NCBI RefSeq assembly: GCF_902726565.1
Contig: NZ_CACVAF010000002.1
Coordinates: 1-64,000 of the forward strand
Origin: Yersinia vastinensis
Lineage (GTDB): Bacteria; Pseudomonadota; Gammaproteobacteria; Enterobacterales; Enterobacteriaceae
Direction: 5' to 3'
DNA: 64,000 nt
Below, piece by piece: positions 56,146-64,000 of the stretch (positions are counted from its first letter, which is position 1; each line of letters begins with the position of its first letter). The notes beneath the pieces were generated by a model. The model saw only the letters and a program-made list of their open reading frames with translations, was not told the DNA's origin and did no database searches. The position numbers and the translations under genes were made by a program.

Positions 56146-56241
56146 CTCACCTTAAATAATTAAGCTTGCTGTGATAAAAATTATCGGCTAAAAAGATGAT
56201 ATTAAAAACTGCTGACTTTTCGTCAATTGAGTTCCTTTTTT

Positions 56242-58029
56242 ATGACCAGCCGACGTCTTGAACAACAATATTTACGATTATTGAACCTGGTCGGTAGACA
56301 GCCGGTTGAGATTACATTGCAAGAACTCGCCGATAAACTCAGTTGTTCCAAGCGCCACATGCGGACATTATTAGTTCAGATGCAGCAAGCTGGCTGGTTA
56401 ATCTGGCAGGCGGAAGCTGGTCGTGGCCGTCGGTCACATCTGCAACTATTGCGGAACACTCATCAATTATTGATCGAAAAAGCGGAACAGTTGCTTGATG
56501 CGGGTGATTTTAATGGCGCTATTGCACTACTCGGAAAAGATAAACAGCTTATCACTCCGTTGCTGCGAACTAAGCTGGGATATCGGGTGCGGGATGACTA
56601 TCAAGCATTACGTATTCCTTACTATCGAACCATGCCAAACCTTTGTCCCGGCACGCCACTGCGTCGCTCCGAACGGCATTTAGTACGGCAGATTTTTAAT
56701 GGGCTGACGCGAATAGACGAGGAAACCGGTGAGGTAACGACAGATTTAGCTCATCGTTGGCGTAGATTAGACCCTCTGCACTGGCGCTTTTATTTACGCC
56801 CTGCGGTGCAGTTCCACGATGGAAGAGAGCTTTCCAGCCGTGATGTCGTCAGCTCATTAACCCGCTGCGCCAAGCTGCCTCTGTTTTCACATATCCGCCA
56901 AGTTAGTCAACATGGGTTGCTGGGGGTGGTTATTGAGCTTAATCAGCCAGATTCTCAGCTTCCCTTATTGCTGGCCCATCATAGCGCACTGATTTTGCCT
57001 GAAGACTCTGTTTCACAACCAGATTTTGCCAAGCACCCTGTAGGAACCGGCCCCTATCGGGTCGCCGAAAACGATGACTGGCATTTGCAGATGAAATCTT
57101 TTGACCACTATTTTGGTTTTCGTGGTCTGTTAGACGAAGTTGAAGTCCTTATCTTTCCTGATCTAGCCCGTCAGCCAAGTACCTCCCCACAGGCATTATC
57201 CGAGCAACTGAGCATAGCGAATATCCAAAGTGCGACTTGGCTGAGTTCCAGTATCAGTGATATTGATTATGTCTCTGGTTTTGCTGCTGGCCTGACCGGT
57301 AAACCATCCGATGCAACGCAAGAAATGTTTCTGGAGCGAGGCGGATACTTTTTACTGTGTGATAGCCGCTCGCCACACTGGCGTAGCATTAAGCAGCGCT
57401 GCTGGTTACGAGAAACCCTCAATCCCTATAATCTCATTCAACGTTTAATTGACCCTATTCGTCCTTTCTGGGTCCCTGCGAGTAGTGTGTTACCCACATG
57501 GTTTCACGGCATTGATTCCGGGGATAAATGCTCTCCTTTCACTACTCCTCCCGTTACTCCCGATGAAATGCCGGTACTGACGCTGGCTTATCATGCACAA
57601 CACCCAGAATATGCCATGTTAGTGACGGAAATGACGCACATTCTGGCGACACAAGGCATCCGTCTGGAAGCATCCGAGCTTGATTACACCACTTGGGCCA
57701 GCGGTGATGCGAATATTGATTTGTGGTTGGGGACAGTCAATTTTGCTATTCCCGAAGAGTGGAATGTCACGGCTTGGTTATTGGGTTCCCCATTACTGCG
57801 CCAATCCATCACTGGTGGTGATGAAGATCGTTTACAAGCCTACCTCAATGATTGGCGCAACCAATCCCTCAACGCCGAACAATTGATCAGAGATGTCATT
57901 GCCACTGGCTGGTTGCAGCCATTATTCCACCACTGGATGCGCCTCAAAGCCCCCGAGCAAGCCCAAGGTGCTCACTTGAATAACCTCGGTTGGTTTGATT
58001 TCCAAACCACTTGGCTAGAGCCAGAATAA
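56242..58029 (+). CDS. SgrR-family transcriptional regulator
   Basis: ATG 56242 gives 595 residues; a TTG at 56227 is possible. The N-terminus is a winged helix (LEQQYLRLLNLVGRQPVEIT; LSCSKRHMRTLLVQMQQAGW). The rest resembles periplasmic oligopeptide/solute-binding proteins (LHWRFYLRPAVQFHDGRELS, HPVGTGPYRV) and ends NNLGWFDFQTTWLEPE. E. coli SgrR (551 residues) controls sgrS and thiamine-transport genes; this one is longer, has no sgrS-like gap and is probably a paralogue. Confidence 0.85.
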   Translation: MTSRRLEQQYLRLLNLVGRQPVEITLQELADKLSCSKRHMRTLLVQMQQAGWLIWQAEAGRGRRSHLQLLRNTHQLLIEKAEQLLDAGDFNGAIALLGKDKQLITPLLRTKLGYRVRDDYQALRIPYYRTMPNLCPGTPLRRSERHLVRQIFNGLTRIDEETGEVTTDLAHRWRRLDPLHWRFYLRPAVQFHDGRELSSRDVVSSLTRCAKLPLFSHIRQVSQHGLLGVVIELNQPDSQLPLLLAHHSALILPEDSVSQPDFAKHPVGTGPYRVAENDDWHLQMKSFDHYFGFRGLLDEVEVLIFPDLARQPSTSPQALSEQLSIANIQSATWLSSSISDIDYVSGFAAGLTGKPSDATQEMFLERGGYFLLCDSRSPHWRSIKQRCWLRETLNPYNLIQRLIDPIRPFWVPASSVLPTWFHGIDSGDKCSPFTTPPVTPDEMPVLTLAYHAQHPEYAMLVTEMTHILATQGIRLEASELDYTTWASGDANIDLWLGTVNFAIPEEWNVTAWLLGSPLLRQSITGGDEDRLQAYLNDWRNQSLNAEQLIRDVIATGWLQPLFHHWMRLKAPEQAQGAHLNNLGWFDFQTTWLEPE

Positions 58030-58422
58030 CAATGACTGATATTAACAAGGTAGAATCAATTAAGAGCAAATATTAATATTGCAGAAAATAGCGAGTGGTT
58101 TTATATAAATATTTAATTTAAGTTCCATTTAAAAATATCATTTAAACTAACGCGTAAAATTAACTTCATGATTTAACAACGACCTTTAGCAACAGCCGTT
58201 AACCAGGGCGAAATCTCGTTATTATTTCTTGACGGCGATCATGGTTGAATGGTATTTACTCTTCAAGGGAAGTAAGAGTATTGGTTATTAAATTACAACA
58301 TTAAACATACATAATTAAAATAAATTCATAGCTTAAAATAAATAATAACAAGAAATACTTTCCTTAATGGACTAAACCAAGAAATGATTTCTTGGCATAA
58401 GTAATCAATGGAGGAGTACACT
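58030..58422 (+). promoter_or_regulatory. AT-rich leader of the RiPP precursor gene
   Basis: This 393-bp gap has no ORF of note. It contains a perfect dyad CCAAGAAA-TGA-TTTCTTGG (58377-58395), 27 bases before the precursor ATG, and a TACTCTT/AAGAGTA dyad (58257-58280). Many TA-rich stretches could serve as -10. Much lower GC than the neighbouring chromosome. Confidence 0.6.
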
Positions 58423-58578
58423 ATGTCTCGTTTAAAAAAAGAAATCACTGAAACTAAAACTGCAATTGGCACCAATAAAGCTAAAAAAAATCAACCTCAA
58501 CATCTCGCTGATGATCTCCTTGATCAGATCGCTGGTGGCTGGGTAAATGCGTTCTTAAACTGGTCTAGAAGCTTTTAG
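58423..58578 (+). CDS. xyeA: XYE-type RiPP precursor (double-glycine leader, 12-residue core)
   Basis: The 51-residue ORF starts at ATG 58423 behind TGGAGGAG. Residues 1-39 form a leader ending HLADDLLDQIAGG, a double-glycine cleavage site of the type cut by C39 peptidases. The core, residues 40-51, is WVNAFLNWSRSF. It holds three aromatic-X-X units: WVN, FLN and WSR. In the XYE group radical SAM enzymes link an aromatic ring to the third residue of each unit, making three-residue cyclophanes. The maturase and exporter genes follow. A hairpin after the stop separates it from them. Confidence 0.92.
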   Translation: MSRLKKEITETKTAIGTNKAKKNQPQHLADDLLDQIAGGWVNAFLNWSRSF

Positions 58579-58596
58579 ATTTAAATGCTAAACGAC

Positions 58597-58618
58597 GGGG
58601 CTACCAATTGGTGGCCCC
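58597..58618 (+). terminator. Stem-loop between precursor and maturase genes
   Basis: GGGGCTACC-AATT-GGTGGCCCC is a 9-bp stem (one U-G) followed by TATTTAAC. Such hairpins after RiPP precursor genes let the precursor be made in excess over the enzymes. A second small stem, CCAGAA/TTCTGG (58639-58657), touches the maturase ribosome site (AAGGAG). Confidence 0.75.
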
Positions 58619-58672
58619 TATTTAACTTGCTTTACAGTCCAGAATTTCAATTTCTGGAAGGAGTGTAGAGGT

Positions 58673-59857
58673 ATGGGTCATTTACTAACAAAAAAAAGGA
58701 TTAAACATTTTGAAATAATCTTAAAAATAAGTGAGCGCTGTAATATAAATTGTGATTATTGCTATGTATTTAACAAAGGAAACTCAGATGCTGATAACAA
58801 TCCAGCTAGAATTTCCAATAAAAACATTGGTCATCTAGCCAATTTTTTACAACGAGCCTGTTTGGAGTATGAGATTGATACTTTACAAATTGATTTTCAT
58901 GGTGGAGAACCACTACTAATGAAAAAAGAACACTTCGCCAATATGTGTATTCAATTAATTTCAGGTAACTATTGTGGCTCAAATATCAGGCTCGCATTGC
59001 AAACCAACGGCATACTTATTGACGATGAATGGATATCGTTATTCGAAAAGTATTCAGTGAATGTCAGTCTCTCAATTGACGGCCCTAAACATATTAATGA
59101 TCGTCATCGCCTAGACACCAAAGGGCGTAGCACTTATGAAGGCACTGTTCGTGGCCTCCGTCTGCTTCAAAGTGCTTATCAACAAGGTAGGCTCCCCTCC
59201 GCCCCTGGAATTTTGTGTGTCGCTAATGCTCAGGCAAACGGCGCTGAAATCTATCGACACTTCGTTGACGATTTGGGTGTTTACGGTTTTGATTTTCTAA
59301 TACCTGATGACTCTTACAACGATGTGAATATTGATCCTATCGGAATTGGTCGATTTCTCAATGAGGCGTTGGATGAGTGGGTGAAGGACAATAATCCCAA
59401 GATGTTTGTTCGCCACTTCCAAACGCACTTTGCCAGCCTACTCGGTGTAAAAAATATTGGTATTTTAGGGCAGTCATCAAATATCACTGGGATATATGCC
59501 TTTACTGTCGGCTCAGATGGCTCTATACGTGTGGATGATACCTTACGATCAACATCAGACCGAATATTCAATACTATTGGCCATATTTCTGAAATCAATC
59601 TGTCTGATGTATTAAATAGTCCACAAGCCCAAGAATATTCTTCCATTGGACAATGCCTGCCAAACGAATGTAAAGGTTGTATTTGGGAAAACATCTGTAC
59701 CGGTGGGCGTTTAGTCAATCGATTTTCATCTGAAGAGCGCTTTAAGCACAAGTCCGTTTATTGTTATTCCATAAGAAGTTTTCTAAGCCGCGCATCTGCC
59801 CATCTACTGAATATGGGCATCAAGGAAGAACGTATTATGACATCAATTTGCCAATAA
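58673..59857 (+). CDS. xyeB: Radical SAM/SPASM peptide maturase (three-residue cyclophane former)
   Basis: The 394-residue protein has the radical SAM motif C-x3-C-x2-C at Cys23, Cys27, Cys30 (ERCNINCDYCYVF), GGEP-like FHGGEPLL, and QTNGILID. The C-terminal SPASM domain has Cys328, Cys333, Cys336, Cys342 and Cys364 (CLPNECKGCIWENICTGG), for extra Fe-S clusters. ATG 58673 follows AAGGAG. It lies directly after the precursor gene. XyeB enzymes make C-C bonds between an aromatic residue and a residue two places on. Confidence 0.92.
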   Translation: MGHLLTKKRIKHFEIILKISERCNINCDYCYVFNKGNSDADNNPARISNKNIGHLANFLQRACLEYEIDTLQIDFHGGEPLLMKKEHFANMCIQLISGNYCGSNIRLALQTNGILIDDEWISLFEKYSVNVSLSIDGPKHINDRHRLDTKGRSTYEGTVRGLRLLQSAYQQGRLPSAPGILCVANAQANGAEIYRHFVDDLGVYGFDFLIPDDSYNDVNIDPIGIGRFLNEALDEWVKDNNPKMFVRHFQTHFASLLGVKNIGILGQSSNITGIYAFTVGSDGSIRVDDTLRSTSDRIFNTIGHISEINLSDVLNSPQAQEYSSIGQCLPNECKGCIWENICTGGRLVNRFSSEERFKHKSVYCYSIRSFLSRASAHLLNMGIKEERIMTSICQ

Positions 59858-59887
59858 CTGGATACATGGTGAAGGAGCGCCTTCAAA

Positions 59888-61171
59888 TTGATTAATAGAC
59901 ACCCTATTTTCAGACCGGAAGCTATAGAACATAGTTTTCATCATTGGCTAGGTAGCCCGCAAGTCATTACCCCTGTTGGCGCGTCTATTTGGGTCATGCT
60001 CGCACTGGCGCTTATTATCGGCCTCATTGCATTTTTGGTCGTAGGTGATTACACGCAAAGAGTCACTCTGACCGGTACCGTTATTCACCACCCTGCCGTG
60101 GCGCGAATAACCCCCTCTCATGATGGAGTTATTGTCAGCAGCTTCGCTGCGGAGGGGAAAATGGTTCGTGCAGGGGAGGTGATTTTTATCGTGAACATGG
60201 AAACGCAAACAGCGAATGGCGGCACAAAACATCAAATAACTTCATCATTAAAATCTCAGAAAGCCACCATTGAGCGAGAAATAAAACTCAAATCAGCGGC
60301 AGCAGATACCGAGAAAAGCTTTCTTGCCCAGAACCTAAAAAATAAAGAAGTTGAACTGCAAAAAATGAATGGTTTGCTTACTCAATCAGCACAACAAACA
60401 TCATGGTTACTGAAAAAAGCAGAGCACTTCAAGAGATTAGTTCACAAAGGGATAGCCCTTGAAACAGAACATATGAGCCGCCGCTCCGAGTATTACAATG
60501 CCTCAATTCAGCTTGCTGCCTTCCAACGAGAAAAGGTGAAACTACAGGGGGAAATTATCAGCATCAAAGCTAGGCTAGCAGTAATTCGCAACGAGGTTGA
60601 GTCCTCACTAGAGATGTTACTCCGGCAGACTGCACGGTTGGACCAAGATTTAGTATCGGTTGAAGAGCGACGAGAATTGCATGTAACATCGCCTATTACT
60701 GGCACATTAACCGGTATTACAGGATTAACCGGCCACACTGTTCAGGCAACCCAAGAATTGGCAAGTGTTGTACCAGCATCGGGGCACGCCGAAGTGGAGA
60801 TTTTTGCCACTGCCGAAGCTATCGGTGAATTACGTGAGGGCCAGTCAGTAAGATTGCGCTTCGACGCCTACCCCTACCAATGGTTTGGGCAATATAGCGG
60901 CACAGTAAAGTCAATTTCGGCTACCTCAATCGAGCAAAACTTAGATGTAAATAGAGGGCAGGCTCGTCAGTTGCCACTGCGGTATTTCCAAGTGCGAGTG
61001 AGTCCTAAAAATAACGGGGTACTTCTGGCAGGGAAAACCTATCCTCTACGTCCAGGAATCGGTGTTGAAACTGATATCTTCATCAGGAAACGACCACTCT
61101 ACCAATGGTTACTTTTTCCCCTCAAAAATAGTCATATCACCACTCAAAGTAAGCCGAGAGATGCCGCATGA
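59888..61171 (+). CDS. HlyD-type membrane fusion protein
   Basis: TTG 59888 with AAGGAG ten bases upstream gives 427 residues; no better ATG is near the start. One N-terminal membrane segment (MLALALIIGLIAFLVVGDYT, about 37-56), a lipoyl-like half (HPAVARITPSHDGVIVSS), long coiled coil (about 110-240), then LHVTSPITGTLTGITGLTG and a C-terminal beta domain. It would link the ABC exporter to an outer-membrane channel. It overlaps the exporter gene by ATGA. Confidence 0.9.
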   Translation: MINRHPIFRPEAIEHSFHHWLGSPQVITPVGASIWVMLALALIIGLIAFLVVGDYTQRVTLTGTVIHHPAVARITPSHDGVIVSSFAAEGKMVRAGEVIFIVNMETQTANGGTKHQITSSLKSQKATIEREIKLKSAAADTEKSFLAQNLKNKEVELQKMNGLLTQSAQQTSWLLKKAEHFKRLVHKGIALETEHMSRRSEYYNASIQLAAFQREKVKLQGEIISIKARLAVIRNEVESSLEMLLRQTARLDQDLVSVEERRELHVTSPITGTLTGITGLTGHTVQATQELASVVPASGHAEVEIFATAEAIGELREGQSVRLRFDAYPYQWFGQYSGTVKSISATSIEQNLDVNRGQARQLPLRYFQVRVSPKNNGVLLAGKTYPLRPGIGVETDIFIRKRPLYQWLLFPLKNSHITTQSKPRDAA

Positions 61172-63291
61172 AAAGTTACTTTTCTCCTCTCCGACAACGC
61201 TTGCCACTAGTGATGCAAACCGAGGCAACAGAGTGCGGGCTGGCCTGTATGGCGATGATTGCAAGCTATTATGGTCTTAACATGGATCTCCATGCCCTGC
61301 GTAAACACTTTCAAGTGTCGCTGAAAGGGATGAGTTTGCGGAATCTTATCGTGCTTGCCGATCGCTTATCCTTAGGTTCGCGTCCCGTGCAGGCTGATAT
61401 GGACAGCGCTCATCAGCTAAGAACCCCCTGTATCCTGCATTGGTCATTTAACCACTTTGTGGTACTGAAAAAATTTTCTCGCCACGGAGCCATCATCCTA
61501 GACCCAGCCAAAGGTGAACGCCGAATTTCTTTTACTGAGTTATCCCAGCATTTTACCGGTATCGCACTTGAAGTTTGGCCTAATCAGAATTTTCAGCGCC
61601 GGACTGAAAAAAAAACCATTCGGCTGCTGGATATGTTCAAAAATGTATCAGGGTTGCCACGGGCTTTAACCCAAGTATTAACCCTTTCGCTATGCATCGA
61701 ACTTCTTGCTATGGTCGTACCGATGGCAGCTCAATTCACTATCGATATGGTGTTAAAGTCTGGCGATATTGATTTGGTATCACTGATAACTTGGGGAATT
61801 ATTGCTTTATTGCTCTTTAGAGCCTTGTTCAGCCTAGTTCGAGCTTGGGCGGTTATCTCTGTTAAATACACATTGGGCATCCAATGGAACTCTGGACTTT
61901 TTAGTCATTTGATCCGATTACCTGTGTCCTATTTCGAAAAGCGCCATATTGGTGATGTCAGTTCACGCTTTAACTCGCTGTCAGTTGTGCAAGATGCTTT
62001 TACCGCGGAAATGGTGGCATCGCTGCTGGATATTGTGGTGATCATTGGGCTGTTCTTTCTGATGTGGGCCTATAATGGCCAGCTCGTAGTCATTGTTGTA
62101 TTGATATCCGTTCTCTATGCTGCCATCAAATTCTTTCTTTTTGGTGCCTATCGTTCTGCCAATCTGGAAGCTATTGCTCACGAAGCTAAACAACAGTCGC
62201 ATTTCCTCGAAACCATTCGCGGAATCGCGTGCGTCAAAATCTTTGATCTAGTTGAACGTCGGCGATCTGATTGGCTCAATTTAGTTATCGATGAAGCTAA
62301 TGCCAAAGCCTACCTTTTTAAAATAGATCTGGCGACACAGACTATAGGTCTTTTGTTAATCGGCTTGTCCTCGGCGATAACATTATGGTTAGGAGCTAAA
62401 CTGATCGGTGAAGGCACAGCGACTACAGGCATGCTGTTTGCTTTCTTGATTTATTCGGATATGTACATCACTCGAACCATACGAGTCATTGATTCTATTA
62501 TCAAACTACGTTTGATTGATATGCACAGTGAGCATCTCTCCGACGTCGCGCTTGCCCTTCCAGAGCTTGAAATAGGTGAGAAAAATGTGGCTACGCCCAA
62601 TACCATTGCTGGCGACATTGAAGTTAAGGGCCTGAGTTATCGCTATGGCGACGGTGAACCCGCCGTATTTGAAAATGTGTTTCTGTCTATCAAGGCCGGG
62701 GAAAGCATTGCCATAATCGGGCCATCGGGTTGCGGTAAATCAACCCTCCTTAAAATAATGGGGGGTTTAGCGCCTCAGGAAAGTGGCTCTATTTTATTAG
62801 ATGGCGTAGATGTACAACGATTGGGTTTAGGCGTCTACCGTAAAAGCATTGCCTATGTATTACAAGAGGATAGGCTCTTTGCCGGATCCTTGCTTGATAA
62901 CATCAGTTCATTTGATATTCATCCTGAAAATGAATGGGTATTTGAATGTGCTCGCATGGCATCAATTCATTCTGAGATTGAAGCCATGCCAATGAAGTAT
63001 GAAACGATGGTCGGCGACATGGGGAACACTCTATCCGGTGGGCAGCGCCAACGTATCTCTCTGGCTCGAGCTTTATATAAACGCCCACGAATATTATTTC
63101 TTGACGAAGCAACCAGTGACTTGGATATCGACAACGAAACTCGAATTAATGATTCGATACGTGCGTTGAACATAACCCGGGTTTTTATCGCCCACCGCCC
63201 AACAATGATTGCCATGGCGGATAGGGTATTTGATCTCAGCAAAAATGTTGAAATGGAAAAGGATAATCCTCATGCTTTTTTTATCCAATAA
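61168..63291 (+). CDS. Peptidase-containing ABC exporter (C39)
   Basis: The 707-residue protein has all three bacteriocin-exporter modules. The N-terminal C39 peptidase has Cys23 (TECGLACMAM), His96 (WSFNHFVVL) and Asp112 (ILDPAKG). Six membrane segments span about 160-430. The ATPase has GPSGCGKSTLLK, LSGGQRQRISLARAL and ILFLDEATSDLD. It would cut the precursor after Gly-Gly and export the core. An adaptor gene precedes it. Confidence 0.95.
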   Translation: MKSYFSPLRQRLPLVMQTEATECGLACMAMIASYYGLNMDLHALRKHFQVSLKGMSLRNLIVLADRLSLGSRPVQADMDSAHQLRTPCILHWSFNHFVVLKKFSRHGAIILDPAKGERRISFTELSQHFTGIALEVWPNQNFQRRTEKKTIRLLDMFKNVSGLPRALTQVLTLSLCIELLAMVVPMAAQFTIDMVLKSGDIDLVSLITWGIIALLLFRALFSLVRAWAVISVKYTLGIQWNSGLFSHLIRLPVSYFEKRHIGDVSSRFNSLSVVQDAFTAEMVASLLDIVVIIGLFFLMWAYNGQLVVIVVLISVLYAAIKFFLFGAYRSANLEAIAHEAKQQSHFLETIRGIACVKIFDLVERRRSDWLNLVIDEANAKAYLFKIDLATQTIGLLLIGLSSAITLWLGAKLIGEGTATTGMLFAFLIYSDMYITRTIRVIDSIIKLRLIDMHSEHLSDVALALPELEIGEKNVATPNTIAGDIEVKGLSYRYGDGEPAVFENVFLSIKAGESIAIIGPSGCGKSTLLKIMGGLAPQESGSILLDGVDVQRLGLGVYRKSIAYVLQEDRLFAGSLLDNISSFDIHPENEWVFECARMASIHSEIEAMPMKYETMVGDMGNTLSGGQRQRISLARALYKRPRILFLDEATSDLDIDNETRINDSIRALNITRVFIAHRPTMIAMADRVFDLSKNVEMEKDNPHAFFIQ

Positions 63292-64000
63292 ATATATCAG
63301 AACGATGATAATTAGCCTCTTATTCTCCGTATTTTCACTGGCGGCTCCCGCAGCTCACACTGCCGACTCGGTCATGCATATGCCTTTTGAATGGGATGAC
63401 ACTTCAGTACCAGTGGTCAATGTTGAAATCAACGGCATGCGACAAACTTTTATGATCGATACTGGCGCCACCATTGCCCTACATTTATTCAAGGATGTCA
63501 TGGCGCAACTTCCCGGCTTAATACCAGAACCCGGTAAACAGCGCACGACTGACTTGACAGGGAAAATATTTTTAAACGATAAATTCCATATTCCACAACT
63601 TTCGATTAATGGCATGACATTTAAGGATGTGAAAGGAATATCATTGGCTACCCCTCGAGGAATGCCTCTCACATCAGATAGCATCATTCCTCATACCATG
63701 ATGATTGGGTTGGATTTATTCAAGGAAAAGGCGGTGCTTATTGATTACAAAAATCAGCGGCTGTCGGTTGCTGATACTACCCAAGCGTTAGGCATTAATA
63801 TGGCTGATGGATGGATCTCACTGCCGTTACGAATGACGCAAGAAGGGATTGCAATCAACGTGTTGAAGAATTTAAAAGAATACAACATGGTGGTTGATAC
63901 TGGCGCAACCGTCTCTGTATTTTGGAAAGAAAGAATTAAAAACCCGTTTGTTAGCATATCCTGCCAAGAAGTCATGACGGGGATGAAACATGAAGGATGT
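63272..64000 (+). CDS. Tandem retropepsin-like aspartic protease (3' end outside window)
   Basis: ATG 63272, 20 bases inside the exporter end with AAGGA upstream, is open to the window edge (243 codons seen). It has a signal peptide (about 1-31, MIISLLFSVFSLAAPAAHTA) and two aspartic protease loops: IDTGATIAL at 62-70 and VDTGATVSV at 208-216, each in a half-like domain. The first is followed by IGLDLF. A periplasmic protease with two active-site loops in one chain is expected. In the cluster it could process or degrade the exported peptide or provide immunity. Substrate unknown. Confidence 0.85.
   Translation, partial: MLFLSNKYIRTMIISLLFSVFSLAAPAAHTADSVMHMPFEWDDTSVPVVNVEINGMRQTFMIDTGATIALHLFKDVMAQLPGLIPEPGKQRTTDLTGKIFLNDKFHIPQLSINGMTFKDVKGISLATPRGMPLTSDSIIPHTMMIGLDLFKEKAVLIDYKNQRLSVADTTQALGINMADGWISLPLRMTQEGIAINVLKNLKEYNMVVDTGATVSVFWKERIKNPFVSISCQEVMTGMKHEGC

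Follow-up and report, generated by a model that had tools for sequence, protein, structure and literature searches.

The window analysed here, the first 64,000 nucleotides of contig NZ_CACVAF010000002.1 of Yersinia vastinensis (contig C2 of the 44-contig, 4.52-Mb genome G000), carries at its 3′ end an operon with the gene order xyeA, xyeB, HlyD, C39-ABC and aspP, and on the contig each of the five has an uninterrupted, full-length reading frame (Table 1). Comparison of these genes with their relatives suggested with high probability that the locus is a xenorceptide-type (XyeA/XyeB) triceptide operon, whose exported product would, by analogy, carry three rings and probably be aimed at BamA. Systems of this kind are already known; what is added here is a darobactin locus in the same genome and a conserved, unexplained protease. 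Those loci of Yersinia and Photorhabdus whose operon is intact have the same five genes in this order. An earlier note on this DNA had described the locus as complete-looking; the five genes bear this out, but only beyond the window edge, because aspP is cut at position 64000.

Table 1. Features of the xye operon and of the darobactin locus located on contig C9 of the same genome
Feature	Position	Strand	Basis
Putative sigma-70 promoter of the operon	58229..58257	+	Predicted from TTGACG, 17-nt spacer, GTATTT
Candidate structured 5′ leader	58265..58395	+	Helix 58265-58274/58356-58365; hairpin 58377-58384/58388-58395 just before the ribosome site
xyeA, precursor peptide	58423..58578	+	TIGR04495, 97.9 bits, cut-off 33; 51 aa = 39-residue leader ending in GG + 12-residue core
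Core peptide WVNAFLNWSRSF	58540..58575	+	Sequence; three ring motifs WVN, FLN, WSR
Stem-loop between xyeA and xyeB	58597..58618	+	Stem of 9 bp followed by TATTT; probably a leaky terminator or a processing site
xyeB, radical SAM/SPASM maturase	58673..59857	+	TIGR04496, 742.6 bits, cut-off 450; CNINCDYC cluster motif; GGAAGGAG upstream
HlyD-type periplasmic adaptor	59888..61171	+	Pfam PF13437 (HlyD_3), 4.8e-14; orthologues in same operon
C39 peptidase-ABC exporter	61168..63291	+	Pfam PF03412 (Peptidase_C39), 6.9e-38; PF00664 (ABC_membrane); PF00005 (ABC_tran)
aspP, secreted-looking two-lobed aspartic protease	63272..64000 in window, to contig 64189	+	Pfam PF13650, 3.1e-11 on in-window part
Darobactin locus	L005 7263-13306 = contig C9:107262-113305 (L005 = C9:100000-116000)	-	DarC, DarD, DarE above cut-offs
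70-aa precursor of darobactin locus	L005 13094-13306	-	WNWSKSF near its end; identified by sequence, outside family scans
Long permease-like ORF, DarB position	L005 10529-12916	-	Identified by position, outside family scans

The precursor and its core peptide

XyeA matched the NCBIfam equivalog TIGR04495, "XyeA family cyclophane-containing RiPP triceptide" (RiPP, ribosomally synthesised and post-translationally modified peptide), along the whole profile (positions 1-50 of 50) with an E value of 2.7e-28. The junction of leader and core reads DQIAGG/WVNAFLNWSRSF, and the core is laid out as GG/WVN A FLN WSR SF, with aromatic-x-N/R/K motifs after Gly-Gly. The 51-residue open reading frame (ORF), the Gly-Gly leader and the W-V-N, F-L-N and W-S-R units described in the earlier note were all recovered at 58423-58578, and the search against TIGR-type RiPP models that it had proposed gave a score far above the cut-off. 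Its remark that the ORF lies below usual gene-calling cut-offs needs qualifying, as annotation does not always pass over ORFs of this size: an equivalent 51-residue xyeA is annotated in Xenorhabdus bovienii NZ_FO818638. The suggestion that the exact core may be new is weaker than stated, because Y. aldovae ATCC 35236 (L074), encoding GGWVNAFLNWSRSF, has the identical 12 core residues; on this comparison the core belongs to a natural series and is not unique.

A ribosome site, GGAGG at 58410-58414, is located just 5′ of the xyeA start codon at 58423. A 56-residue reading from the ATG at 58408 was rejected as unlikely, because this ATG directly precedes the ribosome site serving the 58423 start. 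The ratio of nonsynonymous to synonymous substitution rates (dN/dS) of xyeA was below 0.3 in 13 of 14 defined pairs (15 pairs, six loci) and 0.72 in the remaining pair, with dS near saturation. Judged by the TIGR04495 match, the upstream GGAGG and the low dN/dS, the xyeA ORF is not a chance frame.

The ring chemistry can be proposed from XncB. According to a review, this enzyme joins C6 of Trp with the beta carbon of Arg or Asn, and C4 of Phe with the beta carbon of Asn, the partners being residues i and i+2 (PMC11002830; this and the other papers are cited from passages). Three rings are expected in the product, since the core holds one W-x-N, one F-x-N and one W-x-R, the types reported for XncB. 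XyeB would accordingly form three C-C bonds, Trp1-Asn3, Phe5-Asn7 and Trp8-Arg10, each costing two hydrogens, and the calculated monoisotopic mass of the 12-mer is 1525.75 in linear form and 1519.70 with three rings.

The precursors of related loci were aligned in 20 rows, and the motifs were counted in the first 15, the main group; four other rows are divergent relatives, and L131, on the wrong strand, was discounted. Outside the alignment stood G300, G311, Y. aldovae, L045 and L057, which are damaged or unclear, as well as L052, L058 and L059. In the main group, W[VI]N and [FY]x[NR] were each present in 15/15 precursors and Wx[KR] in 13/15, the exceptions being WTN in L044 (P. australis) and FTK in L048 (Vibrio sagamiensis), and the wider relatives L053 and L130 have fewer ring motifs. 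These deviations, together with the lack of an obvious immunity gene in the operon, would suit a XyeA-family cyclophane peptide whose third ring is not formed and whose role is signalling or metal handling, not killing. We regard this as improbable, given that each of the three motif types which XncB is reported to cyclise occurs in the window core (PMC11002830), that this core shares its tail WSRSF with the Y. intermedia daropeptide core WNWSRSF (PMC9055067), and that xenorceptide A2 is reported to be bactericidal (PMC12971899).

Maturase, export genes and protease

XyeA and XyeB both scored above the curated cut-offs of their models, which upholds at the equivalog level the XYE (XyeA/XyeB) assignment made in the earlier note. 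The note had named clear homology of the maturase to an unrelated radical S-adenosylmethionine (SAM) group as an argument to the contrary, and none was found: the second-best family of the window XyeB was YhhB (255.8 bits, cut-off 445), and its score of 74.4 bits on the DarE model (cut-off 650) places it outside the DarE family. In the label radical SAM/SPASM, the SPASM part is weak by Pfam, with 15.8 bits against a gathering score of 21.5, although the XyeB model, which describes the entire protein, scores well beyond its cut-off. The radical SAM motif CX3CX2C is CNINCDYC, and its three Cys are invariant in 20/20 maturases. Altogether eight Cys, including C333, C336, C342 and C364, are invariant in the 20 maturases compared, and a strict SPASM Cys-spacing pattern matched the window copy only (1/20). 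The dN/dS values of maturase, adaptor and exporter lay between 0.04 and 0.20 in every defined pair.

The window operon resembles the Xenorhabdus xenorceptide/XncA-XncB triceptide systems in its XyeA/XyeB equivalogs, its GG leader, the W-x-N, F-x-N/R and W-x-R/K motifs and the export by HlyD and C39-ABC proteins, and an aspartic protease gene is present in most of the Xenorhabdus operons examined. It differs from them in that the protease gene stands last and not directly after xyeB, and in its own core WVNAFLNWSRSF, the XncA sequence being left out of this comparison. The identity of the window XyeB is 52-60% with five Xenorhabdus copies, 43% with that of X. griffiniae and, where full length, 76% with those of the Y. 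thracica, Y. aleksiciae, Y. aldovae, Photorhabdus heterorhabditis and P. australis loci. The loci of Y. thracica, Y. aleksiciae, P. heterorhabditis and P. australis comprise five genes ordered as in the window but differ in their core residues, whereas Y. aldovae has the identical core in a damaged locus that lacks the adaptor and the greater part of the maturase.

XyeB was found above its cut-off in seven of 25 genomes of the genus and in five of 295 genomes drawn from the family. In a maturase tree of 20 rows the six Yersinia copies grouped together with a support of 89/91, below the strict mark, and the placement of Photorhabdus was without resolution (fork 50/6), so that transfer between Yersinia and Photorhabdus is neither shown nor excluded. 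A separate relative within the family, L129 8078-9587 (G112), has an XyeB 65% identical and an upstream ORF with an XyeA-like leader and no GG-W core; no adaptor, exporter or protease match was present within the 18 kb fetched for it. A near match of xyeA-xyeB was not found in the E. coli genomes.

The pairing of a C39 transporter with a double glycine, also pointed out in the earlier note, was confirmed by the Peptidase_C39 match of the exporter and by IAGG/W in the precursor. The leader would be removed behind Gly-Gly by the C39 domain, after which the exporter would release the 12-residue, three-ring peptide with a calculated mass of 1519.70.

The start codon of aspP was taken from the Y. 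thracica orthologue, and the gene extends 189 bases past the window end. Two D-T-[GA] sites were aligned in 13 aspP orthologues. The AlphaFold model of the Y. thracica orthologue (mean predicted local distance difference test score, pLDDT, 86.6) assigns aspP a bilobed pepsin fold with a catalytic Asp-Thr-Gly in each lobe. Internal stops in three protease copies were dismissed, being located in the overlap with the ABC gene, before the likely start. Of 28 related loci, 22 contained the protease gene; where Xenorhabdus and Serratia loci have it, it lies directly 3′ of xyeB, and in the NCBI annotation of X. bovienii NZ_FO818638, which runs xyeA-xyeB-hypothetical protein-HlyD-ABC, the protease match is that hypothetical protein. 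The other six loci gave no protease match (L051 among them, on a contig of only 5.9 kb), and the core chemistry can therefore probably do without it.

The frequency of the gene, the pepsin fold and the position next to xyeB in Xenorhabdus and Serratia could also suggest that leader removal, or the finishing of the N-terminus, falls to aspP in place of the C39 domain. There is little to recommend this, as a C39 domain is part of the exporter itself, GG closes the leader, and no protease was seen in the six loci mentioned. Under the preferred reading, in which the C39 domain cuts the leader, aspP probably has the peptide itself as its periplasmic substrate, either for final trimming or for the destruction of product that has leaked back. 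An aspP-type protease accompanies most XYE operons examined, and no role for it was found in print: the passages of PMC12281569, PMC12971899, PMC9484694, PMC11002830, PMC10885120, PMC9055067, PMC10107326 and PMC11531245 (the primary xenorceptide papers being outside this scope) mention neither the protease nor the core WVNAFLNWSRSF nor a genome with both loci.

Expression signals and chromosomal site

The TTGAC of the putative promoter was found 194-201 nt 5′ of the precursor start in seven Yersinia loci; the site in the window failed a consensus scan, and its -10 element is weak. Both helices of the candidate leader were recovered by RNAalifold by itself, with nine pairs in the first and six in the second, and their pairing is much better than that of shifted versions. 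A model of the leader, whose conserved region spans 58258-58425, matched eight of the 25 genus genomes at E < 1e-28, each at the xye site, with G305 as the only independent match because the model was built from the seven others. There was no match in Y. aldovae, and no Rfam match of the leader came near the gathering score. The covariation score was reached by 89/500 and 49/500 shuffles in two runs, the second of which had nine rows, one being a spurious minus-strand match of L124. Since the covariation does not beat the shuffles, the RNA structure is a candidate only.

The strongest local stem-loop lay 9-24 nt 3′ of the xyeA stop in all 18 gaps folded, with energies from -11.9 to -21.7 kcal/mol. 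When each gap was compared with 100 dinucleotide shuffles, no more than two were as stable in 17 of the 18 gaps, and ten were so in G298; folding of 12 whole gaps gave z-scores from -0.88 to -4.31. The stem-loop probably limits read-through into xyeB, and it would most likely keep the precursor in excess over the maturase.

The operon sits between an sgrR paralogue and the convergent ptsG, which are separated by 6.3 kb including the xye operon. The paralogue (window 56227-58029, 600 aa) is a second SgrR-like regulator, additional to an SgrR with a 561-aa frame elsewhere. It was full length in 17 of the 25 genus genomes, usually beside ptsG, and ten of these 17 were without any xye part. The distance from the paralogue to ptsG was 64 to 114 bases in seven of these ten (G040, G176, G301, G303, G299, G310 and G307), 398 in G312 and 1070 in G306, and the two genes were on separate contigs in G297. 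G296, with its maturase at 3863413-3864564, and G315 have extra DNA between xye and ptsG. In Yersinia, a single chromosomal site is where XYE operons have been retained or lost. The G+C content of the operon is 43% versus 47% for the window, which fits a foreign origin without showing it.

The precursor and maturase were apparently intact in five of the 25 genomes (G000, G296, G298, G308 and G315), and damaged xye loci were found in four relatives (G300, G305, G311 and Y. aldovae, G295). In G305 there are remnants, namely the leader region, a precursor frame with an internal stop and protease fragments; in G300 a stop interrupts the maturase, and the matches to adaptor and exporter are partial; in G311 the precursor match is split between two frames. 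In Y. aldovae the maturase match is limited to residues 1-68 and no adaptor match was found; this locus lies on contig C175, which also carries bamA, and ptsG is on another contig. The four damaged loci, and the weak -10 element in the window, give some ground for supposing that the locus is silent in this strain, makes no product and is heading for the decay seen in its relatives. We think this unlikely, as none of the five genes is interrupted or truncated, the four genes for which dN/dS was calculated give low values, and the precursor retains GG and all three motifs.

BamA and the co-resident darobactin locus

Xenorceptide A2 is reported to contribute an extra strand between strands 1 and 16 of BamA, shutting the lateral gate, and BamA is also the target of darobactin (PMC12971899). 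By analogy with xenorceptide A2, and more tentatively than the steps above, the product of the window operon might insert at the BamA lateral gate of Gram-negative competitors and block outer-membrane protein assembly. Activity against Gram-negative bacteria is a fair inference from the same peptide. Triceptides of the XYE branch are leads against these bacteria, and each natural core shows residues that maturase and target accept.

Several points weigh against the assignment of the locus as an operon for a three-ring peptide aimed at BamA. The SPASM score of XyeB is low, six related loci show no protease, and the xye system is dispensable, since four relatives carry damaged loci. In addition, the number and positions of the rings are proposed by analogy, and the BamA target has weak support, from review passages (PMC12971899) and the short shared tail WS[KR]SF.

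The darobactin locus of the same genome scored 714.8 bits for DarC (cut-off 450), 439.2 for DarD (375) and 840.9 for DarE (650). Its precursor carries WNWSKSF near its end, the core of darobactin A. This sequence fits the darobactin core pattern WNWxKxF (PMC9055067). Darobactin and the daropeptides (DarABCDE) resemble the window system as radical SAM RiPPs with a C-C ring at W-x-K/R and the tail WS[KR]SF; they differ in that DarE makes an ether ring in addition (PMC9055067) and in their other exporter proteins. With the xye and darobactin loci together, one genome encodes two BamA-type peptides. This makes one ask how a single cell withstands two peptides of the BamA-blocking type, and for what reason it would retain both.

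A fixed change in BamA as producer self-protection received no support: none of 803 alignment columns separated the five genomes with intact xye from the 16 without it (the four damaged ones set aside), and none separated the 17 genomes with intact xye or DarE above cut-off from the eight with neither; this bears on fixed changes, and individual ones may still occur. A further reading is that one cell makes both darobactin (WNWSKSF) and the three-ring xenorceptide (WVNAFLNWSRSF), that the two meet at one target with the shared tail WS[KR]SF marking the part for the BamA gate, and that aspP degrades leaked-back peptide and would be a new kind of RiPP immunity protein. Since BamA of producers is indistinguishable from that of non-producers, self-protection would in this two-peptide reading come from elsewhere, with aspP as a candidate. 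We put it forward as a speculative proposal with a low chance of being correct.

DarE was above its cut-off in 14 of the 25 genus genomes, a genus-wide darobactin count that rests on DarE and not on the whole locus. Mutual exclusion of the xye and darobactin loci in the genus was rejected: intact xye and DarE occurred together in two genomes, xye alone in three, DarE alone in 12 and neither in eight, a distribution without association (Fisher p = 0.62).

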